Source: Clostridiaceae bacterium
GTDB lineage: Bacteria > Bacillota > Clostridia > Saccharofermentanales > Saccharofermentanaceae
Length of the DNA: 33,317 bases
Direction: 5' to 3'
Assembly (NCBI GenBank): GCA_012718915.1
Contig: JAAYBI010000052.1
Coordinates: 1 to 33,317, forward strand
Shown here: piece by piece, positions 2,724 through 28,756 of the stretch
Layout of the letters: each line of letters opens with the position of its first letter
Position numbering within the stretch: position 1 is the stretch's first letter
Position numbers and translations under genes: made by a program
Notes under the pieces: generated by a model
What the model saw: only the letters and a program-made list of their open reading frames with translations
Databases searched by the model: none
What the model was told of the DNA's origin: nothing

Positions 2724-3794
2724 TTAGCTCATTTTACGGATTGCTTCCCATAACCCTAATAAGTAATTTGAACCGAGTGCTCTGTCATAAAGTCCATAGC
2801 CGGGTCGGCCGGTTTCTCCCCAGATCATTCGACCGTGATCCGGTCGAATATACCCATCAAATCCGGTGTCCGAAAGTGCTTTCACAATTTCGAACATATC
2901 TAAATCGCCACACTGCGACAGATGAGCGGTCTCGTGAAAATCGCGTTCTCCGGAATGCTTCACATTGCGCAGATGCGCGAAGTGAATGCGCCCTTGTCCG
3001 GAAAACTCGCGAATCATTGCCGGCAAGTCATTGGCGGCATTTGCGCCGAGGCTTCCGGTACAAAATGCCAAGCCGTTGCGGCTACTCGAATGAAGCGAGA
3101 GAAAACGACGAATGGTATCGACTTCCGTGATGAGTTTTGGCAGTCCGAAAATCGGCCACGGCGGGTCATCCGGGTGAATTGCGAAGTTGATATCATATTC
3201 CTCGGCAAAGGGCATGACGGCATCCAGAAAATATCGAATATTGTCGAAATATTGCTCCGGAGATAAATTCTTATAGAATTCGATATCCTTAACCATCGCC
3301 GAAATGCGTTCCGGCTCCCATCCCGGCAGGGAGTAGCAGTTCGCGCCTTTTAACATGGAGTCGGCCATCTTGCTCGGATCCATACGCAGAACTTCGTCAT
3401 GGTGATAGGACATCACAGTACTGCCGTCCGACAGGCTCTGTGACAAGTTGGTTCTCAACCAGTCCATCACCGGCATGAAGTTATAACAGATGCACTTAAT
3501 GCCGCCGTCGTGAAGATTTTTCACAGTAGTTATGTAGTTGCTGATGTATTCGTCGCGTGAGGGTAGTCCCTTCTTGATATCTTCATGTATATTGACGCTC
3601 TCGATGACTTCCATCTCCAGACCGGCCGCAGCAATCTCTTCGCGAAGCGAAAGAATTTGCTCCAAAGGCCACACCTCGCCGACCGGAATATGCGAAAGAG
3701 CCGTTGCGACACCGCTAACGCCCGGAATGTGACGTATATCCTTGAGAGTAACACTGTCATCACCGTTGGGGAACCAACGAAAAATCATTTTCAT
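2724..3794 (-). CDS. uxuA: mannonate dehydratase
   Basis: Converts D-mannonate to 2-keto-3-deoxy-D-gluconate (KDG), the third step of glucuronate breakdown, in the cytoplasm with a divalent metal. The 356-aa length is typical, and family blocks are visible: the N-terminal MIFRWFPNGDDSVTLKDIRH segment, CICYNFMPVMDW (residues 101-112), FAIHPDDPPWPIFGLP, the CTGSLG block and HLRNV. The ATG at 3794 follows GAGG. It is the first gene of the uxuA-uxuB unit, and its promoter carries overlapping CTAG-N4-CTAG palindromes (3831-3850). I am confident of the function because both the motifs and the pathway neighbours agree. Confidence 0.96.
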   Translation of the reverse strand: MKMIFRWFPNGDDSVTLKDIRHIPGVSGVATALSHIPVGEVWPLEQILSLREEIAAAGLEMEVIESVNIHEDIKKGLPSRDEYISNYITTVKNLHDGGIKCICYNFMPVMDWLRTNLSQSLSDGSTVMSYHHDEVLRMDPSKMADSMLKGANCYSLPGWEPERISAMVKDIEFYKNLSPEQYFDNIRYFLDAVMPFAEEYDINFAIHPDDPPWPIFGLPKLITEVDTIRRFLSLHSSSRNGLAFCTGSLGANAANDLPAMIREFSGQGRIHFAHLRNVKHSGERDFHETAHLSQCGDLDMFEIVKALSDTGFDGYIRPDHGRMIWGETGRPGYGLYDRALGSNYLLGLWEAIRKMS

Positions 3795-3830
3795 AAAACG
3801 CCTCGCAAGTCATTTATTAGACTAATATGA

Positions 3831-3861
3831 CTAGTATACTAGATGACTAGAATAGCGTCAA
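3831..3861 (-). promoter_or_regulatory. uxuA promoter with overlapping CTAG palindrome operator
   Basis: On the minus strand TTGACG (3861-3856), a 17-base spacer and TATACT (3838-3833) make a near-consensus sigma-A promoter about 35-40 bases upstream of the uxuA ATG. The perfect 12-base palindrome CTAGTATACTAG (3831-3842) covers the -10. It shares its right CTAG with a second copy, CTAGATGACTAG (3839-3850), in the spacer, so three CTAG tetramers sit at 8-base intervals. A protein bound here would block polymerase, so repression is the simplest model. The GTATAC core suits a GntR/FadR-type dimer. Confidence 0.75.
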
Positions 3862-3973
3862 GGAGAAAGGACAAAACGTTTTAGCGGATTTGCGAGAATA
3901 TACGACCACCGAAGTCAAATCGGAACATGTGCCGATGATGTGAAGTAATCCATCGAGTCACATAGAAAACAGG

Positions 3974-3998
3974 CTCAGCTAAGCTGAGAGATATCTCT
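3974..3998. repeat. two abutting palindromes, possible weak ablB terminator
   Basis: CTCAGCT-A-AGCTGAG (3974-3988) is directly followed by AGAGATATCTCT (3987-3998), sharing two bases. On the minus strand the first can form a six-pair stem with a TTA loop followed by CCTGTTTT, about 95 bases past the ablB stop, so it may end the abl transcript. The T-run is poor. An operator or a transcription pause are alternatives. Confidence 0.4.
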
Positions 3999-4082
3999 TA
4001 TAGACTAAATAGTTGGCGTTCGCATTTCAAGCTACTGTTTATTAAAAATATACGTATAAATTGCATGACTTTGGCCGAGAAA

Positions 4083-4931
4083 TTACTGACAATCAAAGTG
4101 TTTGTACCAAATATTCATACTCTCGAGTTGTCCGGATATCTGTGTATTGTTGATCAGTGTTCCGCCATATGTATATCCTGCAGAGGAAAAAGTGTAATTC
4201 ATACCCGGGGAAACGGCGCGTGCGATGGTATAAGCCGTGAGGTAACCCAGGGCCTCGAATTTCTCATGCATCGTACGGAGTAAGAGGCCGGCCAGCCCTT
4301 TTCCGCGAGCGCCGGGAAGCGTTGCAAAATCGGTCATCTCTCCGTTCCGCTTGGAAGGATCGGCTTCGATCGAAGAAACGGCAATTAGGGTATGGGCTTG
4401 CTTGACACCAAAATAGATGACGTGACTATTCATCGTTGAAAGAATGTAGTCGGGATCGTGAATCGGAAAAGGATAGGTTGCGAACACGTCTCGATAAAGC
4501 CGGGCTACGTTATTGGCGTCTTCGGAATTGAGTTCTTCAACGATGCAATTTGAAGGGCACGGTTTGACAATCGAGCGACCGCTCGGCCGTTGTTTTGCTT
4601 GTTCAAGAATAGATTGAATCTCGAAATCGTTCTCAAGCAATTGGCGCGCCGGATCGAGGTAGTATGCAGCGAAAACACAATCACCTGTACCATCATAGAA
4701 TCCCGGTATGTGGGCCTCTTCCGTATATCCCTCGGATCCGAAAAACGGGAAATGCTTGGCCGGGATTTTGAGTATTATCTTGCCGTAGCCATTTTTCTCG
4801 GCGAGGCTAAGCAGAGGCTCGTGAATCCCCGACAATTTGTTCTCGGGGCAGTTAAGCAAGTAAATACGGTTATTGGACGGGCCGTGATGGATGACGGCAC
4901 CGTCGAGGTTTTCGATGCGATCAAAGTTCAT
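4083..4931 (-). CDS. ablB: beta-lysine N6-acetyltransferase (GNAT family)
   Basis: Predicted to acetylate L-beta-lysine on the epsilon nitrogen with acetyl-CoA, giving the compatible solute N-epsilon-acetyl-beta-lysine. The 282-aa protein has an N-terminal family-specific half and a C-terminal GNAT fold. The acetyl-CoA loop is [11 protein letters not shown] (residues 208-218), followed by the GY-containing strand of the fold. The ATG at 4931 has GGAG seven bases upstream and overlaps the end of ablA by 11 bases, so translation is probably coupled; the longer open frame to 4973 lacks a ribosome binding site. A GNAT immediately downstream of lysine 2,3-aminomutase is the defining arrangement of abl operons in methanogens and some bacteria, which is the main reason for the specific name. 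Confidence 0.87.
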
Positions 4932-6282
4932 GAGGATTCTCCGATTTCGTTGCTGCTTCGGAGGACTCTTCAACAGCCCAGTCGTCTGCTTCGGCGATTG
5001 AGGGCGTCAGCGTGATGGTGTCAATATAATCTGCAAGGAGACGGGAAATGCCGACAACGCTTCTTTCCTCGGCCTCATCAAGCTTGAGATGCAAGTTGCA
5101 GGTATCGCATTTCAAATCACAAACGGTATGCTCATAACATGACGGTTCCTGGTAAGTAGTGATAACCCCCTCGTAATTACGAAGAATGACCTTGTTGGTC
5201 GACCACGAGATGAGGTAGTTGGGCATAACGGGAATTTTCCCGCCGCCGCCCGGAGCATCGATGACGTAGGTCGGAACGGCAAAGCCACTGGTGTGGCCAC
5301 GCAGGCTCTCCATGATTTCGATGCCTTTTCCAACCGAAGTACGGAAGTGTTCGAGACCTTCAGACAAATCGCATTGATAGAGATAGTATGGTCGCACTCG
5401 GTTTTTGACCAGTTTATGCACCAGGTTTTTCATAATTCGCGGACAATCATTAACATCTGCGAGTAAGACCGATTGATTGCCGAGCGGAATGCCGGCCATC
5501 GCGAGCATTTTGAGTGCGCGTTTCGCTGAAGAAGTCATCTCCTGCGGATGATTGAAGTGCGTATTGATCCAGATTGGTTTTTCGCTGTTTTTCAAGATGG
5601 ATACTAGTTCTTCTGTAATGCGATACGGAAGTACGACCGGTGTTCTGGTCCCAATTCGAATGACTTCGACGTGCTCAATCTTATTGAGTTCTTCAATCAA
5701 CCACGAAATCTGTTTGTCCGAGAGTAAAAATGGATCGCCGCCGGACAAGAGCACATCGCGAACGACGGGGTTCTCTCGAATGTATTCGAGACCTTGTTCC
5801 AAAGTTTCCCGATTGGGTATGGAATCCTTATCGCCGACTTTTCTCTTGCGGGTGCAGTGTCTGCAATACATTGCGCAGACGTTACTGACGCAAAAAAGAA
5901 CACGATCGGGATAACGATGCGTAATGCCCGGCACCGGACTATCGGCATCCTCAGACAGGGGGTCGGACATATCGGAGTTCGCAACTTTCAATTCTCGTGT
6001 ATCCGGAAAGGCCTGCTTGAAAATGGGATCATTCTGATAGTCCTCAGGATCGACCAGCGATAAATAATAGGGGGTTATGGACATCGGAAAATGATCGATG
6101 GTCTTCTGGTACTTGACTTTTTCTTCCGATGAAAAGCGTATATTCAATATTTTCTCAATGGTTTCAACATCCTTGATGCAATGCGACGCTTGCCATTTCC
6201 AATCGGACCACTTGGCATAGGTCTCATCGTCGAGCCATTGATGCTCCATCTTTGACTTTGTTGCTCTAATCTCTGAATTCAT
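4921..6282 (-). CDS. ablA: L-lysine 2,3-aminomutase (radical SAM, PLP)
   Basis: Converts L-lysine to L-beta-lysine; also called kamA. The 453-aa protein carries the radical-SAM cluster motif CAMYCRHC (Cys136, Cys140, Cys143), the GGDPFLLSD block and the PLP-binding lysine in [10 protein letters not shown] (Lys349). A C-terminal Cys cluster (CDLKCDTC, near 388-395) matches the family's zinc-binding region. The ATG at 6282 is preceded by AAGAGG; the frame continues upstream to 6414 without a ribosome binding site. Because ablB overlaps its 3' end, the product most likely feeds acetyl-beta-lysine synthesis for osmotic protection rather than lysine fermentation, whose other genes (kamD/E, kdd, kce) are absent here. 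The operon lies in the middle of the uronate locus, with no obvious metabolic link. Confidence 0.95.
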
Positions 6283-6629
6283 GACAACCTCTTTTCGAAA
6301 ATAGATTGCCGCACAACAGTATGCAAAGCCGAGTCCGGCCTTCATAACAACGATCAGAGCTTTCGGAAAAAATGCGAAACAGAAATAATTACGAATAACG
6401 CAATTGAATTGCAAAAACCAAAAACAAACTATATCGCTTGACGTACACGTTGGGTATGAACGAATTCAGGTTTACCGTTCGCGTCAATCTGACTTAATTT
6501 ACGTTGAAAGCATATCACATTGACATGCCTATGTCGAATTTGACGAGGAGAAGGTTGGTGGACAACAACTTAAAACAGGCCACAACTTGAAGGGTCTGAG
6601 CGGTCTTTTTACACGGGAATAATCAGAGT
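6283..6629. other. 347-base non-coding stretch upstream of ablA
   Basis: No convincing gene is present. The stretch should hold the ablA promoter on the minus strand, but I found only a TATAGT -10 candidate (6433-6428) with a poor -35 (TACCCA, 17-base spacing). Two inverted repeats stand out: GCAATT-G-AATTGC (6400-6412) between that -10 and the gene, and GACAT-GCCT-ATGTC (6522-6535). Either could be a regulator site, perhaps for osmotic control; that is speculation. It also receives the 3' end of the 119-aa membrane protein operon, for which I see no clear terminator. Confidence 0.4.
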
Positions 6630-6989
6630 TTACTTCTCTTGCTGCGGCTTTCTCGGATTCTTGAGTCGAACAATGACATAGGGCAGAAGAAGTAAGAAGC
6701 CGGTCTTGTAAACTGTTTCCCACAGCGCCTGTAAAGCAATGATGGTCATCGGAAATCCGTCTTCTCTCATCGGTGTATATAAATTTATACAAAAGAACAA
6801 GGCGACAAAAAGCAAGCCGAAAGCGATGAGACGAGTGCTTTTGAAGACAAGATCTTTGGGAATATCCGCGTATCGATCTTCCTTGTTAAGGGCTTTAACG
6901 GTTTTTCTGATGCCCAAGAAAACCAGCACTGTCGCGGCAAGCAGCGACAGAATTTGTACTATGGCTTGAATCTGTTCAAAGTCGCTCAT
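6630..6989 (-). CDS. small membrane protein of unknown function
   Basis: I do not recognise this 119-aa protein. It has three hydrophobic segments (roughly residues 10-28, 52-70 and 93-108), a charged loop after the first (KALNKEDRYADIPKD) and a basic C-terminal tail (RLKNPRKPQQEK). It has no signal peptide or cysteine pair. AGAGGA precedes the ATG at good spacing. It starts 23 bases after the DUF624 gene and must share its transcript, so it is likely to work with it in the membrane. Since that operon faces an esterase gene across a CTAG-type operator, expression during growth on uronate-bearing substrates is the best guess. Confidence 0.7.
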   Translation of the reverse strand: MSDFEQIQAIVQILSLLAATVLVFLGIRKTVKALNKEDRYADIPKDLVFKSTRLIAFGLLFVALFFCINLYTPMREDGFPMTIIALQALWETVYKTGFLLLLPYVIVRLKNPRKPQQEK

Positions 6990-7012
6990 GAAAGATCCTC
7001 TTTTCGCAGTCG

Positions 7013-7714
7013 CTATATTTCCGGGATGGTCTCGGATTCCGGGGGAGGGGCATTCACATTCGTGAAAGAGGAAGTTGGCTCAGATGGGATGAATGCTCCG
7101 GGGTTATCCGCGATGATTTTGGCGAAATCATTTTCGATCATAAAAGAGCAGATGAGTGCGCACAGTGCCGGAACGACCAATGCCGCCGGTGGGAACAGGG
7201 GCATCACGATGGCAGATCCGATCACGAGAATGAGAATGCCAAGCGTATGAAAAAAGTGTGATGCCGACAGAAAAAAACTATCACGCAAGGTCGCCTTAAC
7301 CGTATTCGAAAATCGCGACAGGTAAGCGAAGACATAGGGCAGAGTGAAAGCCATCGGCAACAAGAGCACATAGGCGACTTGTCCATAAAAGGAGGGAAGC
7401 TTGAAGTTGCCGATACCGCGCCTTGCGAAGAGGATATCCAGAGCCACCAGCGAGCCGTAAATGATGAATATTAAGGTTAGGGCGACGCCTTGCTTCAAAT
7501 TCTGTCGAAAACCTCGAAGGAAATCATGAATGGTGCCGGAGTATCCGAGGCGGAACCGACGAACGACAGCATAATAAAGCGCTGCGCTTGCCGGACCGAT
7601 TGTTATTATAGGTAGAGAAAAGATGAGCCACAAAACGCTAAGTATGATCATATCGCCGAGTTTATCGCCGAGATTGTAGAGCCAGGAATTTGCGTATTTA
7701 TCGTATTCGGCCAT
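7013..7714 (-). CDS. DUF624 (YesL-like) integral membrane protein
   Basis: The 233-aa protein begins with the family's recognisable N-terminus: a short cytoplasmic stretch, then LGDKLGDMIILSVLWLIFSLPI and ITIGPASAALYYAVVRR, followed by DFLRGFRQNLKQG. About five hydrophobic segments follow. DUF624/YesL proteins are usually encoded beside polysaccharide ABC importers and glycan-degrading enzymes in Gram-positive bacteria, but their biochemical role is not established. The ATG at 7714 follows GGAG at about ten bases. A near-consensus promoter lies at 7754-7782 with a CTAG palindrome just upstream, shared with the divergent esterase gene. The last 25 residues are proline- and serine-rich and probably disordered. 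Confidence 0.87.
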   Translation of the reverse strand: MAEYDKYANSWLYNLGDKLGDMIILSVLWLIFSLPIITIGPASAALYYAVVRRFRLGYSGTIHDFLRGFRQNLKQGVALTLIFIIYGSLVALDILFARRGIGNFKLPSFYGQVAYVLLLPMAFTLPYVFAYLSRFSNTVKATLRDSFFLSASHFFHTLGILILVIGSAIVMPLFPPAALVVPALCALICSFMIENDFAKIIADNPGAFIPSEPTSSFTNVNAPPPESETIPEI

Positions 7715-7753
7715 CGCTGATGATCTCCGTCTGTCGTATTAGTGAGCATGCTC

Positions 7754-7782
7754 AGTATAGACGGAATCCAATCAAGCGTCAA
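7754..7782 (-). promoter_or_regulatory. promoter of DUF624 operon
   Basis: On the minus strand TTGACG (7782-7777), a 17-base spacer and TATACT (7759-7754). The hexamers are identical to those of the uxuA promoter and the spacing is the same, which suggests coordinated strength. The start codon is about 40 bases downstream. Confidence 0.75.
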
Positions 7783-7792
7783 CAACTGAACA

Positions 7793-7821
7793 ACTAGAGT
7801 TCTAGTATTAATAGATATGAT
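7793..7821 (+). promoter_or_regulatory. CTAG palindrome operator and candidate esterase promoter
   Basis: ACTAGA-GT-TCTAGT (7793-7806) is a 14-base palindrome with only the central two bases unpaired, containing CTAGAGTTCTAG (7794-7805). It lies between the divergent DUF624 and esterase genes, 11 bases upstream of the DUF624 -35. On the plus strand a TATGAT -10 (7816-7821) sits 17 bases past ACTAGA (7793-7798), so the palindrome would cover the esterase -35. One site could therefore control both directions. The operator reading rests on similarity to the sites at uxuA and eda. Confidence 0.65.
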
Positions 7822-7891
7822 TTGTTGTTCCTGCTGTGATAAAATGGGCAGAGGAAACGGACAATATTTTAATCGAAGGATGGTATTTCAC

Positions 7892-9430
7892 ATGATGGCG
7901 AAAACTCGGCTCGACGGCATTTTTTCTTCGGGCATGGTTCTCCAAAGAGACGTTGAAAACATTATCTCGGGATATGAGGCGATCCGGGAGAAGGTAAGCA
8001 TTCGAATTGAAAACGAGGAGATCGTCGCTTCGGTTGACGACGGCAGATTTTCGGCAACGATTCCTGCTCATGCTGCGGCTTGCGGACTGACGATCGAGAT
8101 TCAAGGGAGCAGCAGGATTCTTCTTGAGGATGTATGTTTTGGTGATGTCTTTATGCTTAGTGGTCAATCGAATATGGAGCTTCCGGCAGAACGGGTCTTA
8201 GATAATTCTGAAGAAGTGATATCGCAAATCAATCTTCCTCAGATTCGACAGTTCCGGATGGTGCCTCAATACGAGTTCGACCGATCTAAAGCATGTGAAT
8301 TGGCAAAGGCTCCGTGGACCAAGGCAATACCCGGTGAAATTATGCAAATGAGCGCTGCGGGTTTGTTTTTCGCAAGAGAAATTCATGCCGAAAAGGGCGT
8401 TCCGATAGGTTTAATCCTGAATGCACAAGGTGGCTCTTCTGTTGAGGCTTGGATGCCGATGACCTTGTTGGATCGATGGGGAGACTATTCTTCTGAGCCA
8501 CGGCGTTTTGCGCCTCCGGGGGCACTGAATAAGTTTATTGAAGATCGGGAAGAGGCGATTCGCACGTGGTATCGACGCAATGAAACCGAGGGAAATGATG
8601 CTTTAGCTAAAGCGATTCCGATCGGTGCCGAGAACATAGAGATTCCGACGATGTATCCCAAAGAAGAGGGGAAGACCTTTTCGGGAAGTGTTTGGTTCTA
8701 TAAGGAGATCGAGATAGATGACGAGCCTTCGGGACCGGCGATGTTATATGTCGGTGAGTTGATTGATTCGGATCGGACATATATCAATGGTATTAAGGTC
8801 GGAGAGACCGCTTATCGATATCCGCCGAGGCGATATCCGTTAGATTCATCCATCCTTCGAAAAGGCAAGAATCTGGTTGCGGTTCGCCTTGTGATCGAAG
8901 GCGGTCGCGGTTCTTTTATTTTTGATCATCCGTATTATCTGTCTTACGGCAACCATAAAATGGACCTTACAGGGATATGGAGTCATTATGTCGAAAAGGA
9001 AACCGCGCCTTGTGATGTGCCGGGATTTCTGTCGCAACAGATACCGACCGGACTATTTCACGCCTGTATCGAGACGCTGCGTGATGTGAAGGTCAAGGGT
9101 GTCCTCTGGTATCAAGGCGAGTCGAATACCGGGAACGCGAATCATTACGCGGAGATGTTTACATCGATGATGCGTGTCTGGCGCGAGACGATGGGGCAGA
9201 GATTGCCGATTATTACGACGGTATTGGCGGACTACGCGGATCCCCTGAACGGTGTCTCCTCGGATTGGGGTGAAATACAAAGAATCCAAAGAGATATTCC
9301 GAGCATCGTGCAAGACTGCGCAGTTGTTTCTGCTCAGGACCTGGGTGCGCCTTATGAATTACACCCACAGGATAAAGAAACGCTGGGGAGGCGATATGCG
9401 CAAGCCGCAAAGACTCTGTTTTATTCGTAA
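7892..9430 (+). CDS. SGNH-type carbohydrate esterase (sialate O-acetylesterase / acetylxylan esterase-like)
   Basis: Predicted to remove O-acetyl groups from oligosaccharides. The 512-aa protein has the nucleophile block GQSNME (Ser93 in residues 91-96), GVLWYQGESN (403-412) and a C-terminal DLGAPYELHPQDK block supplying the Asp/His region (His491). Between about 255 and 345 lies an inserted beta-sandwich resembling the GH2 sugar-binding jelly roll (VWFYKEIEI, TYINGIKVGETAYRYPPRRY), as in other members of this family. There is no signal peptide, so it acts in the cytoplasm on imported oligomers. I start at 7892 because GAAGGA lies 11 bases upstream; the frame is open from 7817 without a ribosome binding site. 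In this locus acetylated glucuronoxylan fragments are the likely substrate, but sialate or other acetyl-sugars cannot be excluded. Confidence 0.86.
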   Translation: MMAKTRLDGIFSSGMVLQRDVENIISGYEAIREKVSIRIENEEIVASVDDGRFSATIPAHAAACGLTIEIQGSSRILLEDVCFGDVFMLSGQSNMELPAERVLDNSEEVISQINLPQIRQFRMVPQYEFDRSKACELAKAPWTKAIPGEIMQMSAAGLFFAREIHAEKGVPIGLILNAQGGSSVEAWMPMTLLDRWGDYSSEPRRFAPPGALNKFIEDREEAIRTWYRRNETEGNDALAKAIPIGAENIEIPTMYPKEEGKTFSGSVWFYKEIEIDDEPSGPAMLYVGELIDSDRTYINGIKVGETAYRYPPRRYPLDSSILRKGKNLVAVRLVIEGGRGSFIFDHPYYLSYGNHKMDLTGIWSHYVEKETAPCDVPGFLSQQIPTGLFHACIETLRDVKVKGVLWYQGESNTGNANHYAEMFTSMMRVWRETMGQRLPIITTVLADYADPLNGVSSDWGEIQRIQRDIPSIVQDCAVVSAQDLGAPYELHPQDKETLGRRYAQAAKTLFYS

Positions 9431-9452
9431 ATGAGCAATCCTTCAATTTTCG

Positions 9453-9478
9453 AGCACCCGGAAACGGGTGCTTTTTTT
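9453..9478 (+). terminator. rho-independent terminator after esterase gene
   Basis: AGCACCCG-GAAA-CGGGTGCT forms a perfect eight-pair GC-rich stem with a GAAA tetraloop, running straight into seven T residues. It lies 22 bases past the esterase stop codon and separates it from the importer operon. Confidence 0.95.
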
Positions 9479-9521
9479 GTGCACTTTGTATACATATCTC
9501 TCAAAAACCGCTTCGATAGCA

Positions 9522-9578
9522 TTGACAGAGCACAGAAACGGTGATAGTCTGTTTGTAATAGTCAACTAGCATGCAAGT
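9522..9578 (+). promoter_or_regulatory. importer operon promoter with degenerate CTAG operator
   Basis: A perfect -35 TTGACA (9522-9527) is followed at 17 bases by TAGTCT (9545-9550), a weak -10. Around the expected start point lies ACTAGCATGCAAGT (9565-9578), a palindrome apart from one mirror pair. It resembles the CTAG-N4-CTAG sites but has CAAG in the right half. A regulator here would block initiation or early elongation. About 90 bases of leader then precede the first permease gene. Confidence 0.55.
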
Positions 9579-9647
9579 GTGGAAGAAGTCTAGAGGGCAA
9601 ATAATTCAATTTCAGACAGCATAGAGTCGGAACGGTGGTATGGGGTT

Positions 9648-10643
9648 ATGAGTGAATTAACAGATAAGTCTGCAGTTCGAGCGAGTCAGAAGCTCGCCGA
9701 TGCGGATAAATCTAAGGAAATCGTGGTTCGACGCAGGAATCCGCTCAAGAAACATATTAAGCTCAATTGGCAACTCTATGCCATGATGGCAATCCCGCTG
9801 ATTTACTATGTTGTTTTTCGGTATATACCCATGGCAGGAAATATTATCGCTTTCCGTCGCTATCGCGCCGGCAGCAGTGTTCTCGGTGATGAGTGGAGCG
9901 GATTGAAATACTTCAATCAATTTATTAATCAGGCGAGTTTTCGGCGCGTATTCAAAAATACTCTCTGGCTTAACGTATCCTATCTCGCTTTTCGTTTTCC
10001 GATGACATTGGCCTTTGCGCTGTTGCTCAACGAACTTCGCAACATTCGTTGGAAAAAATTCGTTCAGACGGTCTCCTATCTGCCTCACTTCATCTCCGTC
10101 GTCTTGGTCGCCGGTATGATTCGAGAGTTGGTCTCCGCGAGCGGACCGATCAATAATCTTCTTGAAAGCCTAGGCATGGCGAGGGTCTTATTTCTATCAG
10201 AAAGCAAATGGTTTACGACGATTTTCGTCACATCCGGTTTATGGCAGAGTTTGGGCTGGGGTACGATTCTCTACTTAGCGGCGATGGCTAACATTAATCC
10301 AAATCTGTATGAAGCGGCTGAGGTAGACGGCGCCGGACATTTCAGACGCGTCCTTCACGTTACGATTCCGTCGATAATGCCTACGATAGCGACCTTGTTG
10401 ATATTGGACTTCGGTAGTCTGGTCGGATCCGGTGCTTCTTTCGAAAAGGTATATCTGATTTACAACCCCATGATTTACGAAAAGGCAGATATCATCTCAA
10501 CATTTGTATTCCGCATGGGTCTTGGCAGCGGCAGCTATTCTTACGCAACCGCCATTGGTCTGTTCGAAGGCGTTATTAACCTGGTGTTACTTTCAGTTGC
10601 TAATTTTACGGCGAAGAAAGTCGTAGGTAACGGACTATGGTAA
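9648..10643 (+). CDS. sugar ABC transporter permease, LplB-like
   Basis: First of two membrane subunits of a CUT1-type importer for oligosaccharides. The 331-aa protein has about six membrane segments after a 40-residue charged N-terminus. The cytoplasmic EAA loop that contacts the ATPase is YEAAEVDGAGHFRRVLHVTIP (from residue 221). The segment IPLIYYVVFRYIPMAGNIIAFRRY is typical of the polysaccharide (LplB/YtcP) subgroup, here with a few residues changed. The ribosome binding site before ATG 9648 is weak (GGGG close to the start). It overlaps or abuts the second permease and is followed by the receptor gene. No ATPase is encoded nearby; relatives share one MsmX/UgpC-type ATPase among several importers. 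Confidence 0.92.
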   Translation: MSELTDKSAVRASQKLADADKSKEIVVRRRNPLKKHIKLNWQLYAMMAIPLIYYVVFRYIPMAGNIIAFRRYRAGSSVLGDEWSGLKYFNQFINQASFRRVFKNTLWLNVSYLAFRFPMTLAFALLLNELRNIRWKKFVQTVSYLPHFISVVLVAGMIRELVSASGPINNLLESLGMARVLFLSESKWFTTIFVTSGLWQSLGWGTILYLAAMANINPNLYEAAEVDGAGHFRRVLHVTIPSIMPTIATLLILDFGSLVGSGASFEKVYLIYNPMIYEKADIISTFVFRMGLGSGSYSYATAIGLFEGVINLVLLSVANFTAKKVVGNGLW

Positions 10644-10657
10644 AGGGCGGCGACAAT

Positions 10658-11701
10658 ATGAAGAATATATCCGATCAAGAATTACTCGAAAAGTCTGAGC
10701 TTCATAAGAAAGCCGCTGAAAGTCGCGAGAGTGCCCGGCGCTATCAAGAGAAGTTCATCGGCAAAACGATGGTCCCGGAATTTCAAGCGGATGGACAAAA
10801 ACTAAAGACGGCAAATGAGTTAGTTATTCGGCGATCTACAAAAAAAGAGTCTGTCGGGTATCGCGTATTTGTGGTCTTCAATAATATCCTGATGCTGATG
10901 ATTTCCCTTGCAACGCTATATCCATTTATTTATCTCGTTGCACAGTCCTTTTCGTCGGAAGCAGCAATCATACAGAATAAGGTTTCGATTATTCCGGTCG
11001 GATTTAATATCACTACTTATATATCGGTTCTCAGTAAAGGCGATTTTCTAAACTATTACAAAAATACAATTGTTTATGCGATTATCGGTACCGTACTTTC
11101 TCTGATTTTTACGTCCTGTCTCGCATACCCATTATCAAAGCCGCTAAAAGCAAACAAGTTTCTGACACCGTTTGTCATTTTTACGATGTATTTTGGTGGC
11201 GGATTAATTCCGAACTATGTTTGGATTACCCGTCTTGGACTTAAGGGTTCTATGTGGGGATTCCTGCTCCCGATGATGATTGGCACGTTCTATGTCTTGT
11301 TAATGAAATCGTTTTTTACCAACACGCCTAAAGAGCTTGAAGAAGCCGGGGAGCTCGACGGACTATCCAAGATCGGCATATTTGTTCGGATTGTCTTGCC
11401 GCTTTCAAAGCCGATCGTGGCAACAATGACGCTGTTCTATGCGGTTCTTTATTGGAACCATTGGTTCAACGCATTTCTCTATCTCAGAAAACCGCAATGG
11501 CCCGTCGCGTATTACCTGAAGACCATCATAACCGGTGCATCCTCGGCGGAGCCCGGTGAGGTAACGGCAGAAAAGATGCAGATTGCGTCGAACGTCAAGT
11601 CTTGCGCCATGGTGCTCATGGTTCTTCCGATTATTTGTGTCTATCCGATTGTTCAAAGATATTACGTCCAAGGCATGATGTTGGGCGGCGTTAAGGAATA
11701 A
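10658..11701 (+). CDS. sugar ABC transporter permease, YtcP/LplC-like
   Basis: Second membrane subunit of the importer. Six hydrophobic segments and the EAA loop (LEEAGELDGLSKIGIFVRIV, residues 227-246) identify it, together with LATLYPFIYLVAQSFSS and the terminal FVQ-like tail YYVQGMMLGGVKE of the subgroup. I prefer the ATG at 10658, which has AAGGGCGG upstream, giving 347 aa; an in-frame ATG at 10637 overlaps the first permease and would add seven residues. Before the first membrane segment there are about 70 mostly charged residues, longer than the short tail usual in this family. The substrate is inferred from the neighbours to be (methyl)glucuronosylated xylo-oligosaccharides. Confidence 0.92.
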   Translation: MKNISDQELLEKSELHKKAAESRESARRYQEKFIGKTMVPEFQADGQKLKTANELVIRRSTKKESVGYRVFVVFNNILMLMISLATLYPFIYLVAQSFSSEAAIIQNKVSIIPVGFNITTYISVLSKGDFLNYYKNTIVYAIIGTVLSLIFTSCLAYPLSKPLKANKFLTPFVIFTMYFGGGLIPNYVWITRLGLKGSMWGFLLPMMIGTFYVLLMKSFFTNTPKELEEAGELDGLSKIGIFVRIVLPLSKPIVATMTLFYAVLYWNHWFNAFLYLRKPQWPVAYYLKTIITGASSAEPGEVTAEKMQIASNVKSCAMVLMVLPIICVYPIVQRYYVQGMMLGGVKE

Positions 11702-11791: not shown

Positions 11792-13534
11792 ATGGCAAAG
11801 AAATTGTTAAGTGTTTGCCTTGCTGCTATGATGCTGCTCGGTATCGCAGCTTGCGGCAAAACGGAAGAGACATCCGGCGCAACCACGACTCAGAAAGGTG
11901 AAACCACAACTGCAACAACCACCGAAGCACCAGTTGATCTTCCTTACGAGTTTGGCCTAGGCACAACTTTTCGTGCGGATGAATTAACAACGTATTCCAT
12001 GTTCTTCAGCGATGCCAGCTGGTATCCGATGGTTGATACATGGAAGACCGAGGGTGTCTTCAAGAAGATTGAAGAGATGACCAACATTAAGCTGGACATC
12101 ACTTCTTATGACAGTGGTGATTACAATCAGAATATCGGTTTGGATATCAATGCCGGTAATTCCGCTTACATCATCCCGAAGGTTTATGAAGAAGGCCAAT
12201 ATGTTGACGGCGGCGCAGTGGTAGCAGTATCGGATTATACACAATATATGCCGAACTACATGGACTTCGTCGAGACTTATCAAATGCAGCCGGAGCTCGA
12301 TACCATCACCCGTGCAGACGGAAAATACTATCGTTTGCCCGGTATGCTTGAGTCTCCTCTACAGGATTACACTATTTTGATCCGTGACGATATTTTCAAA
12401 GCCGCAGGCTATGATGTGTCTACCATGGAGAAGGATTGGACATGGGATGATCTTTGCGACGTATTAGTCGGCGTAAAGGCCTACATGGTTCAAGAAGGAA
12501 TGTGCAGTGAAAGTGATTATATCTGGTCTGACTTGTGGGCGGGCGTTGAGTCCGGACAAGGCAAGGGCGGAAACATCTTAAAGCTGATCGGATCTTCCTA
12601 CGGTGTACCTGCCGGATGGGCAGTCGAAGACGGCATGAAGTTCAACCAAGAGACCGGTGAATGGTATTTCGCTCCGATTACCGATGATTATAAAGAATTT
12701 GTCACGGTTGCAAATCGCTTTGTGAAGGAAGGCATCCTGGATCCGGAAACCTTTACTCAGGATGACACCACCGCAACAAATAAGTTCTATAACGGAGAGA
12801 CCGTTATTATCAGCGTTAACAGAGGACAATATGCGACGTTCAACCAAGGACTCCAAGAGGTTCAGGGCGAAGGTAACTTCTCCACATATATCTGCGTATA
12901 CCCCCGCGGAAATAATAACTTCATCGCTGAGAGCACGCGTCTTGAAAACGGCGTCATGATTTCTAAGAAGGCGTTGGATGAGCTCGGAGAAGAAGGATTC
13001 ATTCAGATGATTCGCTTCGTTGACTGGCTGTTCTACTCCCCGGAAGCTTACACGCTTATCAAATGGGGCGTCGAAGGCGAAACCTTTGAATTTGTGACCG
13101 ATCCGGACACCGGATTGGAAGTCAAGCAACTCCTGCCCGGCTTCAAGTGCAGCGGACTGGGTATCAGCGGTGCTGAAGAAGATATCGACATTCGTCTCCA
13201 ATGGGGATATGCCGGCGGTAACTTCTGGTACGGAGGTACAGTTGCAGAGATGAGCGATAACTTCGTTCCTGCAGTACAGGATTACTATGCGCGCTTAGGC
13301 GAGTATCGCGAACTTGGCCCGACACGTCCCGGTCTGAAGGCCAGTGAGGATCAGAATGAAATGATCAATCTGATTAAGACCCCTCTGATTGACAATGTCA
13401 ACTCCTGGACGCTCGGATTTGTTACCGGTCAAAAAGATATCGCAACCGAGTGGGATGCGTTCGTCGCTTCCTGCCAGGGTCTGGATTCTGAGACCATGGA
13501 AACCATGTACAATGAGATCTACGCGGAGAGCTAA
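11792..13534 (+). CDS. extracellular sugar-binding lipoprotein, LplA-like
   Basis: Receptor of the importer, anchored outside the membrane by lipid. The signal peptide MAKKLLSVCLAAMMLLGIAAC ends in a lipobox with Cys21, followed by a Thr/Ser/Glu-rich linker (about residues 22-48) and a large solute-binding domain; 580 aa is typical of the LplA group, which is longer than ordinary maltose-type receptors. Blocks such as YRLPGMLESPLQDYTILIRDDIF and WTWDDLCDVL belong to that group. AGGAGG stands eight bases before the ATG. A terminator-like hairpin follows. The ligand is inferred, not seen: decorated xylo-oligosaccharides or aldouronic acids. Confidence 0.93.
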   Translation: MAKKLLSVCLAAMMLLGIAACGKTEETSGATTTQKGETTTATTTEAPVDLPYEFGLGTTFRADELTTYSMFFSDASWYPMVDTWKTEGVFKKIEEMTNIKLDITSYDSGDYNQNIGLDINAGNSAYIIPKVYEEGQYVDGGAVVAVSDYTQYMPNYMDFVETYQMQPELDTITRADGKYYRLPGMLESPLQDYTILIRDDIFKAAGYDVSTMEKDWTWDDLCDVLVGVKAYMVQEGMCSESDYIWSDLWAGVESGQGKGGNILKLIGSSYGVPAGWAVEDGMKFNQETGEWYFAPITDDYKEFVTVANRFVKEGILDPETFTQDDTTATNKFYNGETVIISVNRGQYATFNQGLQEVQGEGNFSTYICVYPRGNNNFIAESTRLENGVMISKKALDELGEEGFIQMIRFVDWLFYSPEAYTLIKWGVEGETFEFVTDPDTGLEVKQLLPGFKCSGLGISGAEEDIDIRLQWGYAGGNFWYGGTVAEMSDNFVPAVQDYYARLGEYRELGPTRPGLKASEDQNEMINLIKTPLIDNVNSWTLGFVTGQKDIATEWDAFVASCQGLDSETMETMYNEIYAES

Positions 13535-13597: not shown

Positions 13598-13688
13598 CAT
13601 ATCACAGGACGGAATTATGGCGTAAAATAAAGCCATCCTTTAATATAACGACCGCAGATTGTTAGTTTTTATGAAACGGGAGATAACT

Positions 13689-16544
13689 ATGTCGGATATA
13701 TGCTTTATAAGAAAAGGTCAGATAGCGGTCATATGTGTTGACCGGGCGCAACGAGGACTGACGCGTGTAGCGAATATGGTCGCAAATGACATAAGAAAGC
13801 GATCCGGCGTTCGTCCTTCGGAGATGCGCGTGTCCGGTGAACCCTGTATTGAAAACGGGGCGAGTGCGAATGCGGATGTTGTTGTATGTGCCGGAATTCT
13901 CGGTCAAGGCGGTGAAGTCGATCGACTGGACCGAGACGGACTAATCGATTCTGCGTTGATTCACAACAATAGAGAGTCTTATATCACAAAGGTGATCAAT
14001 GCCGGTCGTCAAACCATCATTGTTATTGCAGGAAGCGATATTCTGGGTGCGGAATACGGTCTTTTGAGGTTGTCTGAGCTTGCGGGTATTTCGCCATGGC
14101 ACTATTGGGCGGATGTGCCGATCAAGCAGGTTGACGAAATTCATTTTTCGCTCGAAGAACTCGAGTGTGTCTCAAAAGAGCCCGCAGTTAAGCTTCGCGG
14201 CTTTTTCATGAACGATGAGTGGCCGTCTCTGGGCAATTGGGCACACAGTACATTCGGCGGGTTCAACGAGCTCTTTTACGAGAAAGTGTTTGATTTGCTC
14301 CTTCGTTTGCGAGGCAACTTCCTGTGGCCGGCCATGTGGACTGGGGTATTTAGCGAAGATGGGAAAGCGTTTCCGACGGCTTCGGCCGAGATGGCGTCGG
14401 AGCTTGGCATCGTGATGGGGACATCGCACCATGAGCCGCTTTTTCGCGCAGGCGAGGAATTTTCGCATTTGATGACGAGCAGTAATGATGTCGGATATGG
14501 CAAAGATTGGAGCTATCATTCGAATAAAAGGGGCATCTATGAGTTCTGGAACGATGGGGTGAAGCGCAATAAAAACTTCAAGTCGCTGATTACCATGGGG
14601 ATGAGAGGCGAGCGTGACAGTAAGATCCTCGGTGAGAATGCGACACTCGGTGATAATATTCAGTTGCTCAAAGATGCGATTATCGACCAGAAGGAGATTC
14701 TGGAGCGGCACGGACTGAAAGACGCACCGACGGTTTTGGCGCTTTATAAAGAAGTTGAGGATTACTATTACGGTGACAAAGAGACTCAAGGGCTGAAAGA
14801 CACGGATCTATTGGACGATATGATGCTTCTTTTGTCTGACGATAATTTCGGGAATCTGCGTACGGTGCCTTCTTCGCACAATAAGGATCGCAAGGCCGGC
14901 TGGGGGATTTACTATCATTTTGACTATCACGGCGGACCGATTTCTTATGAGTGGGTCAATTCCACTCCGATCAACAAGGCCTGGGAGCAATTAACTACAG
15001 CGTATTCTTATGGAATAAAGGATCTGTGGGTCGTCAATGTCGGAGATCTGAGGCCGGTCGAACTGCCACTATCATACTTCATGAAACTGGCATTTGATTA
15101 TGAGGAAATGTGCATCCCGAACCGAACGTACTCGTTTATGGAAGATTGGGTTCGACAGCAGTTCGGCGCGTACGCGAATTCAGAGATCCGGGCTGAGATC
15201 GTGACTATTCTTGACGAATATACGCGACTTAACGGTGACCGTCGTCCGGAGGCCACGGCGCCGGATACCTTTTCTTTGGCGGAGGACAATGAGGCGTTTC
15301 GAGAGATGGATCGCGCAAAGCTTCTTATCAATCGAGTCGACCGGATTATCCGGGAGATTGCACCGGAGATTAAAGATGCATTTTACGGCTTGGTGGCATT
15401 TCCGGCTTGGGCTTCTGCCAACTTGCGATTGATGATGACTCGCGCAGGTTTATACGAGTATTTCGCATCGATTGGTTCAAGCTATGCCAATACTCTTCGC
15501 GAGGAGATTTTCGAGGGTATCGCACGGGATAAAGAGCTTGTTTTTCGCTATAACGAAGAGATGAGTGGCGGCAAGTGGCGCCATATGATGTCATCGAAGC
15601 ACGTTCATTTTGTGAATTGGAATGAGGAAGGCTCGTCGTATCCGAGTCCGGAAATTTTGGACATACCCGAAAAAGGGCGCTTGGTGGTCGCAATCGGTGA
15701 GACGTTGGAATCGACACAGGATGGGACCCTATATATGCCAAGTATTTCGAATGCTGACGGGCATTCGGGTCGGATTTACGTCATGAATACCGGACGTACT
15801 CCGATTGACTTTGATGTCACGGTGACGGCACCGTGGATTGAGATTCAAAGAACGCAACTGGATGCGGATACTTGTATGCTCGAAGTGTGGTCAGTGGAAG
15901 AAAAAATAGAGGAAGAGCGCGTCGCGTCCATTCACATCACTTCTGCCTCGCAACAAATTCAGGTTCGGGTTCGCACCGAAGCGCTGTCAGGCGCTTCATA
16001 TCCGGCGGGGACTTTTGTAGAAACCCGTGGGCTTATCAGTATGCTCGCCGATGCATATGCTCGCAAAACAGATAGTGCAGAGGCTTCTTGGACGAGAATA
16101 GACGGATACGGAAAATCCGGTGTGTCGATGAAGGTGCTGCCGCATACGTATCGATGTGCTAATCCGGAGGGCGCACCCAGTCTTGAGTACGCCTTCGCGA
16201 TGAGCCATGAAGGCGAGTACACGATTCGGGCTTACATTGCACCGACAAATAACCCGCACAAATACGAGGGGCTCAGATTTGCGCTTCAGGTCGATGCTTC
16301 GGATCCGGAAGTGATAGATACCTTGCCGGAGAACTTCAATGCCGGAGACACCGACGACATGAATTGGTGTCGATATGTCTTGGACAATGGTCGTTATGGT
16401 GAGATGAAGGTAAAATTGTGCGCCGGAGAGCATCGACTGCGATTTATTCACATGGACGCAGGCATCGTACTCCAAAAAATAGAGATTGCGCAAAATCCGT
16501 CCAGGAGTTTTTACGGATATTTACCGACGTATCAAGTGAATTGA
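13689..16544 (+). CDS. GH115 xylan alpha-1,2-glucuronidase
   Basis: Cleaves alpha-1,2-linked (4-O-methyl)glucuronic acid from xylan or xylo-oligosaccharides. The 951-aa protein shows the GH115 core: GFFMNDEWPSLGNW (residues 171-184), LRLRGNFLWPAMWTGVFSEDG (206-226) and GTSHHEP (244-250), followed by the large catalytic barrel and the C-terminal GH115 beta-sandwich domain (from about residue 760). No signal peptide is visible, so it works in the cytoplasm on imported fragments. The ATG at 13689 has GGGAG upstream; in-frame ATGs at 13659 and 13671 do not. It is the probable source of the glucuronate used by the surrounding pathway. I found no CTAG operator directly upstream. The 3' end overlaps the convergent GH2 gene by 13 bases. 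Confidence 0.94.
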   Translation: MSDICFIRKGQIAVICVDRAQRGLTRVANMVANDIRKRSGVRPSEMRVSGEPCIENGASANADVVVCAGILGQGGEVDRLDRDGLIDSALIHNNRESYITKVINAGRQTIIVIAGSDILGAEYGLLRLSELAGISPWHYWADVPIKQVDEIHFSLEELECVSKEPAVKLRGFFMNDEWPSLGNWAHSTFGGFNELFYEKVFDLLLRLRGNFLWPAMWTGVFSEDGKAFPTASAEMASELGIVMGTSHHEPLFRAGEEFSHLMTSSNDVGYGKDWSYHSNKRGIYEFWNDGVKRNKNFKSLITMGMRGERDSKILGENATLGDNIQLLKDAIIDQKEILERHGLKDAPTVLALYKEVEDYYYGDKETQGLKDTDLLDDMMLLLSDDNFGNLRTVPSSHNKDRKAGWGIYYHFDYHGGPISYEWVNSTPINKAWEQLTTAYSYGIKDLWVVNVGDLRPVELPLSYFMKLAFDYEEMCIPNRTYSFMEDWVRQQFGAYANSEIRAEIVTILDEYTRLNGDRRPEATAPDTFSLAEDNEAFREMDRAKLLINRVDRIIREIAPEIKDAFYGLVAFPAWASANLRLMMTRAGLYEYFASIGSSYANTLREEIFEGIARDKELVFRYNEEMSGGKWRHMMSSKHVHFVNWNEEGSSYPSPEILDIPEKGRLVVAIGETLESTQDGTLYMPSISNADGHSGRIYVMNTGRTPIDFDVTVTAPWIEIQRTQLDADTCMLEVWSVEEKIEEERVASIHITSASQQIQVRVRTEALSGASYPAGTFVETRGLISMLADAYARKTDSAEASWTRIDGYGKSGVSMKVLPHTYRCANPEGAPSLEYAFAMSHEGEYTIRAYIAPTNNPHKYEGLRFALQVDASDPEVIDTLPENFNAGDTDDMNWCRYVLDNGRYGEMKVKLCAGEHRLRFIHMDAGIVLQKIEIAQNPSRSFYGYLPTYQVN

Positions 16545-20040: not shown

Positions 20041-21453
20041 CTAGTTTTTCGATGCGAAAAGCGAGGCGGCGTTTTGATAGCATACCCGTGTCACAATTTC
20101 CTTCAGAATGTCGGGATCGCCGGTCATTCGGCCATCTTCGACCCAGCCCCCCAATAAATCACAGAAAATTCGTCGAAAATATTCATGGCGAGAATAGGAA
20201 AGCAAGCTTCGGGAATCGGTGAGCATCCCGATAAAAGCCGGAAGATAACTCTGGGCGGATAGGCTCAGAAGGTGATCTCTTATGCCTTGCTCGTGATCAT
20301 TGAACCACCATGCCGCGCCATGAGAAATATAAGAGGCGCCGTCGCCTTCGCGGAAACATCCGGCGAGGGTGTCGAGAGCAGCGTTGTCGTTGGGGTTTAA
20401 GCTGTAAAGAATCATACGAGGCAATGAGTTTTGTGTTTGCAGGGCATCGAGATATCGTGCGAGCGTCTCGATGTTATTCCCGTTGGCGATGGTATCATAG
20501 CCGGTATTGGGACCCAGCGCTCCCAGGGCAATCGTATTGTTGTCTCGTCGACAACCAAAATGGACCTGCATCGTCCAACCCTTCATATGGTAGGCCTCGG
20601 CGCAGAACATCATCATTTCGGTCTTATAGGACTCGACGTCTTCCGCGCTCAAGGTAGATTCGGATGTGCTCATTCTCTTTTCGAAAATCTGAGCAACACG
20701 TGCGGCGTCAGCCGGTCGAAAAGCAATTTTCTCCGTGCCGTGGTCGGCGATGACGCAACCGCGATCCGCGAAATATTCGATGCGCGACAGGATGGCATAT
20801 TGAAGGTCTTTGAGGGACAGAATCTCTGTGCCGCAAGCCGCCGAGAGGCGTTGAATGTATTCCGGAAAGGAAGTCTTCTCAATGTCAACAGCCGGGTCGG
20901 GTCGGAAAGTCGGATGAACGCCGACTTTGAACTCGGGGTCCGACAGAATAGCCGTGTGCGATTCCAGGGCGTCAGCGGGATCATCCGTCGTGCACAGGCG
21001 CTCAACATTCGACTGAAGAATCAGTCCGCGTGAACTCATGTCACTTTTGGATAGAATGTCTGAGGATATATCCCATATGGCACCGGCGTTGGCGGGAGTG
21101 ATATCACCGGTAAATCCGAAGTATCGAAGAAGTTCGAGATGGCTCCAGTGATATAGGGGGTGACCGGCGGCATAAGAGACCGTATTGATCCAAGCATCGA
21201 ACTTTTCGCGATCTGACGCATCCCCGGTGATCAGTCGCTCATCCACTCCGGCAGTTCGCATCAGTCGCCATTTGTAGTGATCGCCGCGAAGCCAGATCTG
21301 GGTGATATTGTCAAAACGGACGTCTTCGGCAATGTCCCGGGCGTTGATGTGACAGTGATAATCGACAATGGGCAAGGAGCTCGCAATGCCATGGTACAGC
21401 CGTTGTGAAGCCACACTTCGCAGAAGGATATCATCGTTACAAAAGATGTTCAT
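20041..21453 (-). CDS. uxaC: glucuronate isomerase
   Basis: Converts D-glucuronate to D-fructuronate (and galacturonate to tagaturonate) in the cytoplasm, the entry step of the pathway. The 470-aa length is standard. Metal-binding histidines appear in VDYHCHINARDI (His33, His35), and the family blocks WLRGDHYKWRLMRTAGVDE, GWTMQVHFGCRRDNN and LGPNTGYDTIANGNN are intact. GAGG precedes the ATG at 21453. It is read divergently from eda-kdgK across a 181-base region holding a CTAG-type operator, and the GH2 gene follows it. UxaA and UxaB are absent, so use for glucuronate rather than galacturonate is indicated. Confidence 0.96.
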   Translation of the reverse strand: MNIFCNDDILLRSVASQRLYHGIASSLPIVDYHCHINARDIAEDVRFDNITQIWLRGDHYKWRLMRTAGVDERLITGDASDREKFDAWINTVSYAAGHPLYHWSHLELLRYFGFTGDITPANAGAIWDISSDILSKSDMSSRGLILQSNVERLCTTDDPADALESHTAILSDPEFKVGVHPTFRPDPAVDIEKTSFPEYIQRLSAACGTEILSLKDLQYAILSRIEYFADRGCVIADHGTEKIAFRPADAARVAQIFEKRMSTSESTLSAEDVESYKTEMMMFCAEAYHMKGWTMQVHFGCRRDNNTIALGALGPNTGYDTIANGNNIETLARYLDALQTQNSLPRMILYSLNPNDNAALDTLAGCFREGDGASYISHGAAWWFNDHEQGIRDHLLSLSAQSYLPAFIGMLTDSRSLLSYSRHEYFRRIFCDLLGGWVEDGRMTGDPDILKEIVTRVCYQNAASLFASKN

Positions 21454-21546: not shown

Positions 21547-21575
21547 CTTATATATGCTAGAATACTAGAAAACAA
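21547..21575 (-). promoter_or_regulatory. uxaC promoter with operator in the spacer
   Basis: On the minus strand TTGTTT (21575-21570), a 17-base spacer and TATAAG (21552-21547) form a promoter candidate with a weak -35 and a 5/6 -10. The palindrome CTAGAATACTAG (21557-21568) lies wholly inside the spacer. The start point would be about 90 bases upstream of the uxaC ATG. Another -10 candidate (TATGAT, further downstream) has no acceptable -35. Confidence 0.55.
21555..21568 (+). promoter_or_regulatory. eda-kdgK promoter -10 and CTAG palindrome operator
   Basis: On the plus strand TGC-TAGAAT (21555-21563) is an extended -10 with no good -35, about 75 bases before the eda start. The operator CTAGAATACTAG (21557-21568) covers it. 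The same palindrome sits in the spacer of the opposing uxaC promoter, so one bound dimer would silence both transcripts. Only the central bases break its symmetry. It differs by one base from the uxuA site CTAGTATACTAG. Confidence 0.68.
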
Positions 21576-21634: not shown

Positions 21635-22282
21635 ATGAATATAGAGCAAATGATTAAAGATGCCCGACTGATTCCGGTGGTGGTCATAAATCGATTGGAA
21701 GAAGCGGTACCGACTGCACAAGCGCTTCAAAGAGGTGGACTTCCAATCATGGAAGTGACGCTTCGTACAGACTGTGCTCTTGATGCCATTAAAGCCATAG
21801 CGATTCAGTGCCCCGACATATGCCTGGGTGCGGGAACCGTGACCTGTGAAGCGCAGGCCCGTGAGGCTGTCGAAGCCGGAGCGAGGTTTATCGTGTCCCC
21901 GGGATTGGATGTCGCGACGGTCAGATACTGCGTTGCGAATGATATTCCGGTCTTTCCGGGTTGTGTCACACCGACGGAAATTATGGCGGCGTTGGCTGAA
22001 GGGATTCGGGTGGTGAAGTTTTTCCCGGCGAATGTCTATGGCGGAACTAAGGCTCTTAGGGCTCTTGCGGCTCCGTTTGTCGATGTTCGTTTTATCCCGA
22101 CCGGAGGGGTGAACGAGAATAATCTTACTGAATATCTGGATGAGCCGGCGGTTTTTGCGGTCGGCGGCAGTTATATGTGTACAAGTAAAGACATTGAGGC
22201 AGGAAACTATAGTCGTATCGAAGCGTTGACAAAGAACGCCATAGAGGCGGTTCATGCATGGAAAGCAGGGGAGAATAGATGA
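21635..22282 (+). CDS. eda: KDPG / KHG aldolase
   Basis: Splits 2-keto-3-deoxy-6-phosphogluconate into pyruvate and glyceraldehyde 3-phosphate, the last step of the pathway. The 215-aa class I aldolase shows Glu40 in MEVTLRT, GAGTV (65-69), [14 protein letters not shown] and the Schiff-base lysine Lys128 in VVKFFPA, then the FIPTGGV phosphate-binding block. GGGAGG precedes the ATG. Its stop overlaps the kdgK start by four bases (ATGA), so the two proteins are made together from one transcript controlled by the operator at 21557-21568. Confidence 0.95.
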
Positions 22283-28517: not shown

Positions 28518-28690
28518 AGTGCTTCGGGGGATAATTGTATCTACCAGAGGTGTAGTGTGGTCAAGCGGGGCTGAGGGCTGAGGGTGCGCGAATATCGACT
28601 GAAGCTCTAAATAGGTTAGTGTTGTCGGTATTCGCTTCAAGATACCATAGTTCTTGTCGCTCGCAAATTCGCAAGTCTCGAAAAAGGATA
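28518..28690. other. intergenic stretch between Bce and Ytr modules
   Basis: No gene is supported. It contains a short tandem repeat (GGCTGAG twice, near 28566-28579) and no recognisable terminator for the Bce module. Its right end joins the Ytr promoter. Confidence 0.4.
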
Positions 28691-28726
28691 TTGACAGTTC
28701 GACGACAGGTGTATATAGTGTATATA
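28691..28726 (+). promoter_or_regulatory. promoter and tandem-repeat operator of YtrABC-type operon
   Basis: A perfect -35 TTGACA (28691-28696), a 17-base spacer and TATAGT (28714-28719) form a strong promoter. Overlapping the -10 is an exact tandem duplication of GTGTATATA (28709-28717 and 28718-28726), a good candidate for the autoregulatory site of the GntR protein encoded next. The start codon is about 31 bases past the second repeat. Confidence 0.82.
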
Positions 28727-28756
28727 TCTGTTAATACTCACACCGGAGGAGGCGCC

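Follow-up and report, generated by a model that had tools for sequence, protein, structure and literature searches.

Gene order, phylogenetic profiles and a predicted operator provided good support for placing a DUF624 gene and the gene of a 119-aa membrane protein (hereafter P119) in one putative operon of a glucuronate (UxuR-type) regulon, the assignment that the original prediction had proposed. We infer the tie of the pair to import itself, and we give roughly even odds (a probability of about 0.5) to the reading that DUF624 and P119 act as a MusI-like pair of accessory proteins for a CUT1 importer that takes up (methyl)glucuronoxylan oligosaccharides. The finding joins a known family (DUF624, MusI-like) to a new small partner family, P119, and its novelty is moderate.

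The window, meaning the whole 33-kb stretch of DNA analyzed here, corresponds to contig C37 in a genome of 2.2 Mb and 113 contigs. On the minus strand it encodes a UxuR-like GntR/FCD regulator (30–704), which is the presumed reader of the operator described below, a UxuB-like oxidoreductase of the mannitol dehydrogenase family (930–2687), the mannonate dehydratase UxuA (2724–3794), a beta-lysine acetyltransferase and a lysine 2,3-aminomutase, P119 (6630–6989) and a uxu-type DUF624 (PF04854) protein of 233 aa that is a remote relative of MusI (7013–7714); the two adjacent reading frames of the original prediction were both confirmed. The opposite strand carries a SASA-family carbohydrate acetylesterase (7892–9430), two CUT1-type ABC permeases (9648–10643 and 10637–11701), an SBP_bac_8 solute-binding lipoprotein (11792–13534) and a GH115 protein, an alpha-glucuronidase by family (13659–16544). 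Then come a GH2 protein, UxaC (20041–21453, minus strand), KdgA (21635–22282, plus strand) and a KdgK-like kinase (22279–23346, plus strand). Inspection by eye revealed no signal peptide on the esterase, the GH115 protein or the GH2 protein, together with a lipoprotein-like N-terminus on the binding protein, and the substrate therefore probably enters as an oligosaccharide that is cut intracellularly. No ATPase gene was found in the window beside the CUT1 permeases and binding protein; the ATPase genes that the window does hold (23989–24765 and 29133–29993) sit with FtsX-type and ABC-2 permeases. The region downstream of the KdgK-like gene (23989–30657) comprises an ABC transporter with an FtsX-type permease, a two-component system, a GntR regulator and a second ABC transporter.

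The DUF624 protein scored well over the Pfam cut-off (PF04854, 49.7 bits versus 24.2), and its AlphaFold model is helical with a low-confidence tail (pLDDT 86.7, pTM 0.80). The model of P119 (AlphaFold; pLDDT 84.5, pTM 0.70) consists of three long helices spanning residues 3–36, 45–76 and 81–109. The window protein had been described as unrecognized, and it indeed matched nothing in Pfam at E 0.001 or in NCBIfam at E 1. Comparison with its counterpart in a congener (G001) gave dN 0.078 and dS 0.824, so P119 looks like a real protein under purifying selection. The closest approach to a named family was DUF6773 (PF20563), for which two of ten scanned P119 relatives barely passed the cut-off of 27 bits (27.3 and 27.4), two reached 21.3 and 20.9, and six were unmatched at E 0.01, whereas most scanned members (24 of 30, the window's included) remained unmatched even at E 1; P119 can essentially be counted as a small new family. 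Structure comparison in search of a known fold for P119 gave generic helical matches only, and searches for solved relatives of DUF624 or P119 alone yielded none, with profile matches at E values of 0.23 or worse. The two genes are 23 nt apart in the window, overlap by 4 nt in G001 (locus L033), and overlap or lie within 3 nt of each other in 36 of 56 measured pairs (window counted), with P119 starts set by rule at the last methionine before the matched stretch.

A single-sequence search detected P119 in 61 of 148 relatives and a profile search in 62 of the 148, at one copy per genome and always in the window's own family (4 of 30 genera, and 62 of the 88 members searched). Strong matches were confined to that family among the genomes searched: among 391 genomes drawn more widely from the class, all six strong matches were family members, and the four matches outside it were weak (20–26 bits, in frames of 226–1033 aa). 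One P119 locus among the named genomes (L143) is titled Oscillospiraceae. None of 60 same-order genomes outside the family had P119, and a UxuA match, in some cases partial or weak, was present in 25 of these 60, which argues for glucuronate use without a general need for P119.

Within the family, P119 stood directly behind DUF624 in 55 of 60 fetched loci, one of which (L062) has its DUF624 frame split in two, and the window and G035 bring this adjacency to 57 of 62 genomes; the co-occurrence on which the original prediction had staked the pairing was thus found. Two of the remaining five loci (L082 and L091) run off the contig, and in the other three (L059, L063 and L065, from G047, G025 and G049) P119 is located behind uxaC at a distance from DUF624, the latter remaining beside uxuA. 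The moved genes (L059 2006–2362, L063 6065–6415, L065 9638–9988) adjoin a gene like the FkbM-methyltransferase gene found after uxuR in some relatives. The order DUF624, P119, uxuA was observed in 53 of these 60 loci; in most cases uxuB and uxuR follow, and the esterase, both permeases and the binding protein lie on the opposite strand. All 53 are without ablA and ablB, the lysine 2,3-aminomutase and beta-lysine acetyltransferase genes that separate P119 from uxuA in the window (4083–6414) and follow P119 as ablA-ablB in the congener; these two genes look like an insertion into a DUF624-P119-uxuA operon.

The notion that P119 always accompanies DUF624 had to be narrowed to the uxu-type, given one P119 against two to five DUF624 matches per genome, and even there it fails in the three genomes with P119 behind uxaC. 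Among 80 listed of 133 loci on contigs of named genomes, 14 had a uxu-type DUF624 and P119 was found in 14 of 14, some of these being the same genomes as among the 62 and hence not independent of them. Beside DUF624 proteins of other types P119 was found in 0 of 66 loci in named genomes (among the matches listed), ruling out that it goes with DUF624 in general.

The phylogenetic profile tied P119 closely to UxuA. Across the 88 family genomes, 61 had both, one P119 only, two UxuA only and 24 neither (Fisher 3e-18), and the corresponding counts for P119 and the permease were 55, 7, 1 and 25 (1e-14); these p values are too small, since the genomes are related yet treated as independent. When only UxuA-bearing genomes were considered, P119 and the permease associated weakly (54, 7, 0 and 2; p 0.018). 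The two genomes with UxuA and without P119 (G026 and G074) have a uxu locus that is also without DUF624 and permeases, and in the one genome with P119 and without UxuA (G001) the contig breaks before uxuA. Five genomes (G018, G022, G035, G037 and G041) keep DUF624 and P119 with no close permease relative, none being detected at E 1e-75; at E 1e-20 the best permease matches reached 36–37% identity in three of them, and nothing was found in G022 and G037. The loci of the other two genomes with P119 and no permease (G064 and G027) are cut by contig ends, and G005, with a permease and no P119, is uninformative because only 435 bases of its contig precede the permease match. The search for a replacement importer in the five genomes gave a lipoprotein in two, with no match to the window's binding protein. 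This lipoprotein, of 593–595 aa and with no Pfam family, is encoded at L089 (4720–6501) and L090 (3854–5641), at the position of the relatives' importer genes. A mirror-tree analysis indicated no special co-evolution of P119 and DUF624 after removal of the UxuA distance (partial correlation 0.22, similar to several other genes).

Promoter and operator predictions place the pair under the same control as uxuA. The elements TTGACG-17-TATACT occur upstream of both DUF624 (7782–7754, minus strand) and uxuA (3861–3833), confirming the predicted identity of their hexamers, which alone proves nothing, since the region 3700–9700 held five promoter-like sites versus a mean of 8.2 in shuffles, fewer than expected by chance. 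The conservation of the predicted DUF624 promoter in G001 is more telling: neither the CTAG half-sites nor the -35 and -10 elements differ, although synonymous divergence between the window and G001 is strong for both genes (dS 0.82 and 2.3). The palindrome said to lie just upstream was likewise recovered, as CTAGAGTTCTAG at 7794–7805, within a predicted UxuR-type operator (7791–7808) in the intergenic region between the divergent DUF624 and esterase genes, and the form CTAGN4CTAG also occurs at uxuA and between uxaC and kdgA. It is found in seven places in 2.2 Mb, four of them within the 33-kb window (3831, 3839, 7794 and 21557); a loose palindrome search of the window (up to three mismatches) gave 11 matches versus 7.8 expected, with no enrichment.

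A motif learnt from the exact CTAGN4CTAG sites upstream of uxuA, reading ACTAGTATACTAGT, extended these observations to the family. In 51 of 56 loci uxuA had an exact site no more than 300 nt away (0.4 in shuffles), a count that is not independent, the motif having been built from those sites, in distinction to the other regions and controls, which are. Exact sites also occurred in 10 of 48 DUF624/esterase gaps (0.25 in shuffles) and 5 of 29 uxaC/kdgA gaps (0.05 in shuffles), and the scored motif exceeded 99% of the null in 35 of the 48 and 17 of the 29, respectively, whereas none of the regions upstream of 14 other DUF624 genes did so and 356 kb of other loci gave a single match. Together, the genome count and the motif learnt at uxuA rule out a chance palindrome. 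The remaining 13 of the 48 DUF624/esterase gaps fell below threshold; G009 and G011 have no site in that gap, though sites are present at uxuA and the permeases, and no operator was found in the three loci with P119 behind uxaC. In the window, the scored motif starts at 3828, 3836, 7791, 9563 and 21554, plus 15868 inside the GH115 gene, and four further sites occur elsewhere in the genome. The first two are overlapping predicted operators over the uxuA promoter (3828–3853), and the 72 exact sites in 51 of the 56 family loci suggest that such a tandem arrangement is often kept. The site at 9563–9580, a close variant of CTAG-N4-CTAG, stands ahead of the permease-permease-binding protein operon, and that at 21554–21571 lies between uxaC and kdgA. 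Standing between divergent genes, the 7791 site may serve the esterase, DUF624 or both. A predicted UxuR-type operator is common to uxuA, uxaC/kdgA and DUF624.

We propose that DUF624 and P119 would be co-produced from the single promoter and would form a MusI-like membrane accessory complex for the neighboring CUT1 ABC importer. This importer, made of the two permeases and the binding lipoprotein, would take up acetylated oligosaccharides of (methyl)glucuronoxylan for degradation in the cytoplasm by the esterase, GH115 and then UxaC-UxuB-UxuA-KdgK-KdgA; the pair could help in assembly, in stability or in coupling to a shared ATPase. How DUF624 proteins help sugar ABC importers has, to our knowledge, hardly been studied. 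We know of no P119-like partner of MusI, the loss of which reportedly abolishes maltose uptake, nor of P119 beside the Bacillus subtilis DUF624 proteins, presumably those named YesL and YteU.

The original prediction held that DUF624 proteins lack an established role, which does not agree with the best NCBIfam model for the window protein, MusI_fam (NF052431; 77.2 bits, E 1.5e-21, below the cut-off of 160). MusI is a membrane part of a CUT1 sugar importer, and the title of a 2013 paper names it as part of the maltose ABC importer MusEFGK2I of Corynebacterium glutamicum. The window DUF624 matches over residues 10–190, at 77 bits versus 160, and the MusI sugar is maltose. In the DUF624 loci of the family and order, CUT1 permeases were present at 18 of the 22 other loci fetched, which were hand-picked and not random, and a CUT1-type permease was present at 27 of 66 other DUF624 loci in named genomes with flanks of up to 6 kb (among the matches listed). 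With MusI_fam as the nearest model and CUT1 permeases at other DUF624 loci, the role with the best support is that of a CUT1 importer accessory, and in the window the permeases and binding protein face the pair. Two described clusters are comparable in part. In B. subtilis, the excerpt of one source places a DUF624 gene next to YesU and the rhamnogalacturonan acetylesterase RhgT (PMC6120924), similarly near an esterase, there in a pectin cluster. In the aldouronate utilization cluster of Paenibacillus sp. JDR-2, an ABC importer is combined with an intracellular alpha-glucuronidase, as in the window, but with GH67, GH10 and GH43 where the window has GH115; DUF624 goes unmentioned in the excerpts consulted (PMC4765114).

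The main evidence against an accessory role is the five genomes that keep the pair without this importer; the separation of P119 from DUF624 in three genomes, the MusI_fam score below cut-off, the below-threshold operator scores in 13 of 48 gaps and the exact motif in just 10 of them, the mirror-tree null, the detection of a CUT1-type permease at fewer than half of the other DUF624 loci in named genomes and the P119-free UxuA genomes in the order count against it as well. In a different reading, the pair would itself move glucuronate, acetate or another product as a small transporter or channel, with DUF624 as the pore and P119 as its partner and no part in ABC import. The best alignment of the DUF624 model was to CysZ (6d79_B; Z 10.4 over 165 residues at rmsd 3.7), followed by CTL1/PNS1 (Z 9.0–9.4, 181–192 residues), the next entry being at Z 6.2, and in the five permease-less genomes the pair comprises the only multi-helix membrane proteins seen from uxu to kdgK (the G037 contig starts inside uxuA). 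However, Z values below about 13 can reflect a common helical arrangement, Foldseek gave no match at E ≤0.001 for the DUF624 model (E above 0.1), and both the MusI precedent and the presence of CUT1 importers at most of the family and order loci, though at fewer than half of the named ones, point to an ABC importer part; we regard this reading as rather unlikely.

Somewhat less probable still is that the pair acts in the assembly, turnover or sensing of the regulon's membrane transporters generally, instead of as stable importer subunits. Such a role would accommodate both the persistence of the pair where neighboring permeases are missing and the position of P119 by uxaC, yet neither Pfam nor NCBIfam recognized an enzyme or sensor domain, and in both G026 and G074 the uxu locus lacks the pair together with the permeases. 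Mere hitchhiking of the pair in the cluster, with an unrelated envelope function, fits the lack of P119 in every one of the 60 searched genomes of the order that fall outside the family, including the 25 with a UxuA match, but poorly explains the UxuA profile, the operator and the overlapping genes, and appears very improbable.

If the accessory reading is right and the pair is needed for uptake, a widespread class of importers would gain two subunits, and one step in the use of glucuronoxylan by gut bacteria and their relatives would be explained; many bacteria carrying the pair with the glucuronate genes come from animal guts. Many of the loci examined have a DUF624 gene adjoining a sugar ABC importer, and the present locus offers a clean test case, with a small operon, often overlapping genes, a near-constant partner, a likely inducer and natural losses.

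A further, tentative proposal, to which we give less credence than to the accessory role itself, is that DUF624 serves as a common membrane base for CUT1 importers with exchangeable partners, P119 for glucuronate and a one-helix protein for other sugars. This would make P119 a partner dedicated to DUF624, with a regulon of its own. As an idea and not a result, P119 may be the counterpart in glucuronate use of the one-helix partner.

A divergent DUF624 protein of 356 aa is encoded at L094 (10049–11119), with no permeases nearby. The one-helix protein, of 217–225 aa, adjoins DUF624 in six loci (L098, L099, L101, L102, L104 and L105). It was unmatched by the P119 model, and the copy in L098, the sole one scanned, had no Pfam family. 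Four of the six are clearly related, and those of L102 and L104 are alike and weakly similar to the rest. In three loci of one genus (L095–L097) a relative is fused behind DUF624 in a chain of about 500 aa, and this fused domain shares 26–30% identity with the proteins of L098, L101 and L105 (E down to 4e-28). The fusions are located at L095 7607–9112, L096 7182–8684 and L097 5688–7196, and the separate protein at L098 6914–7570.
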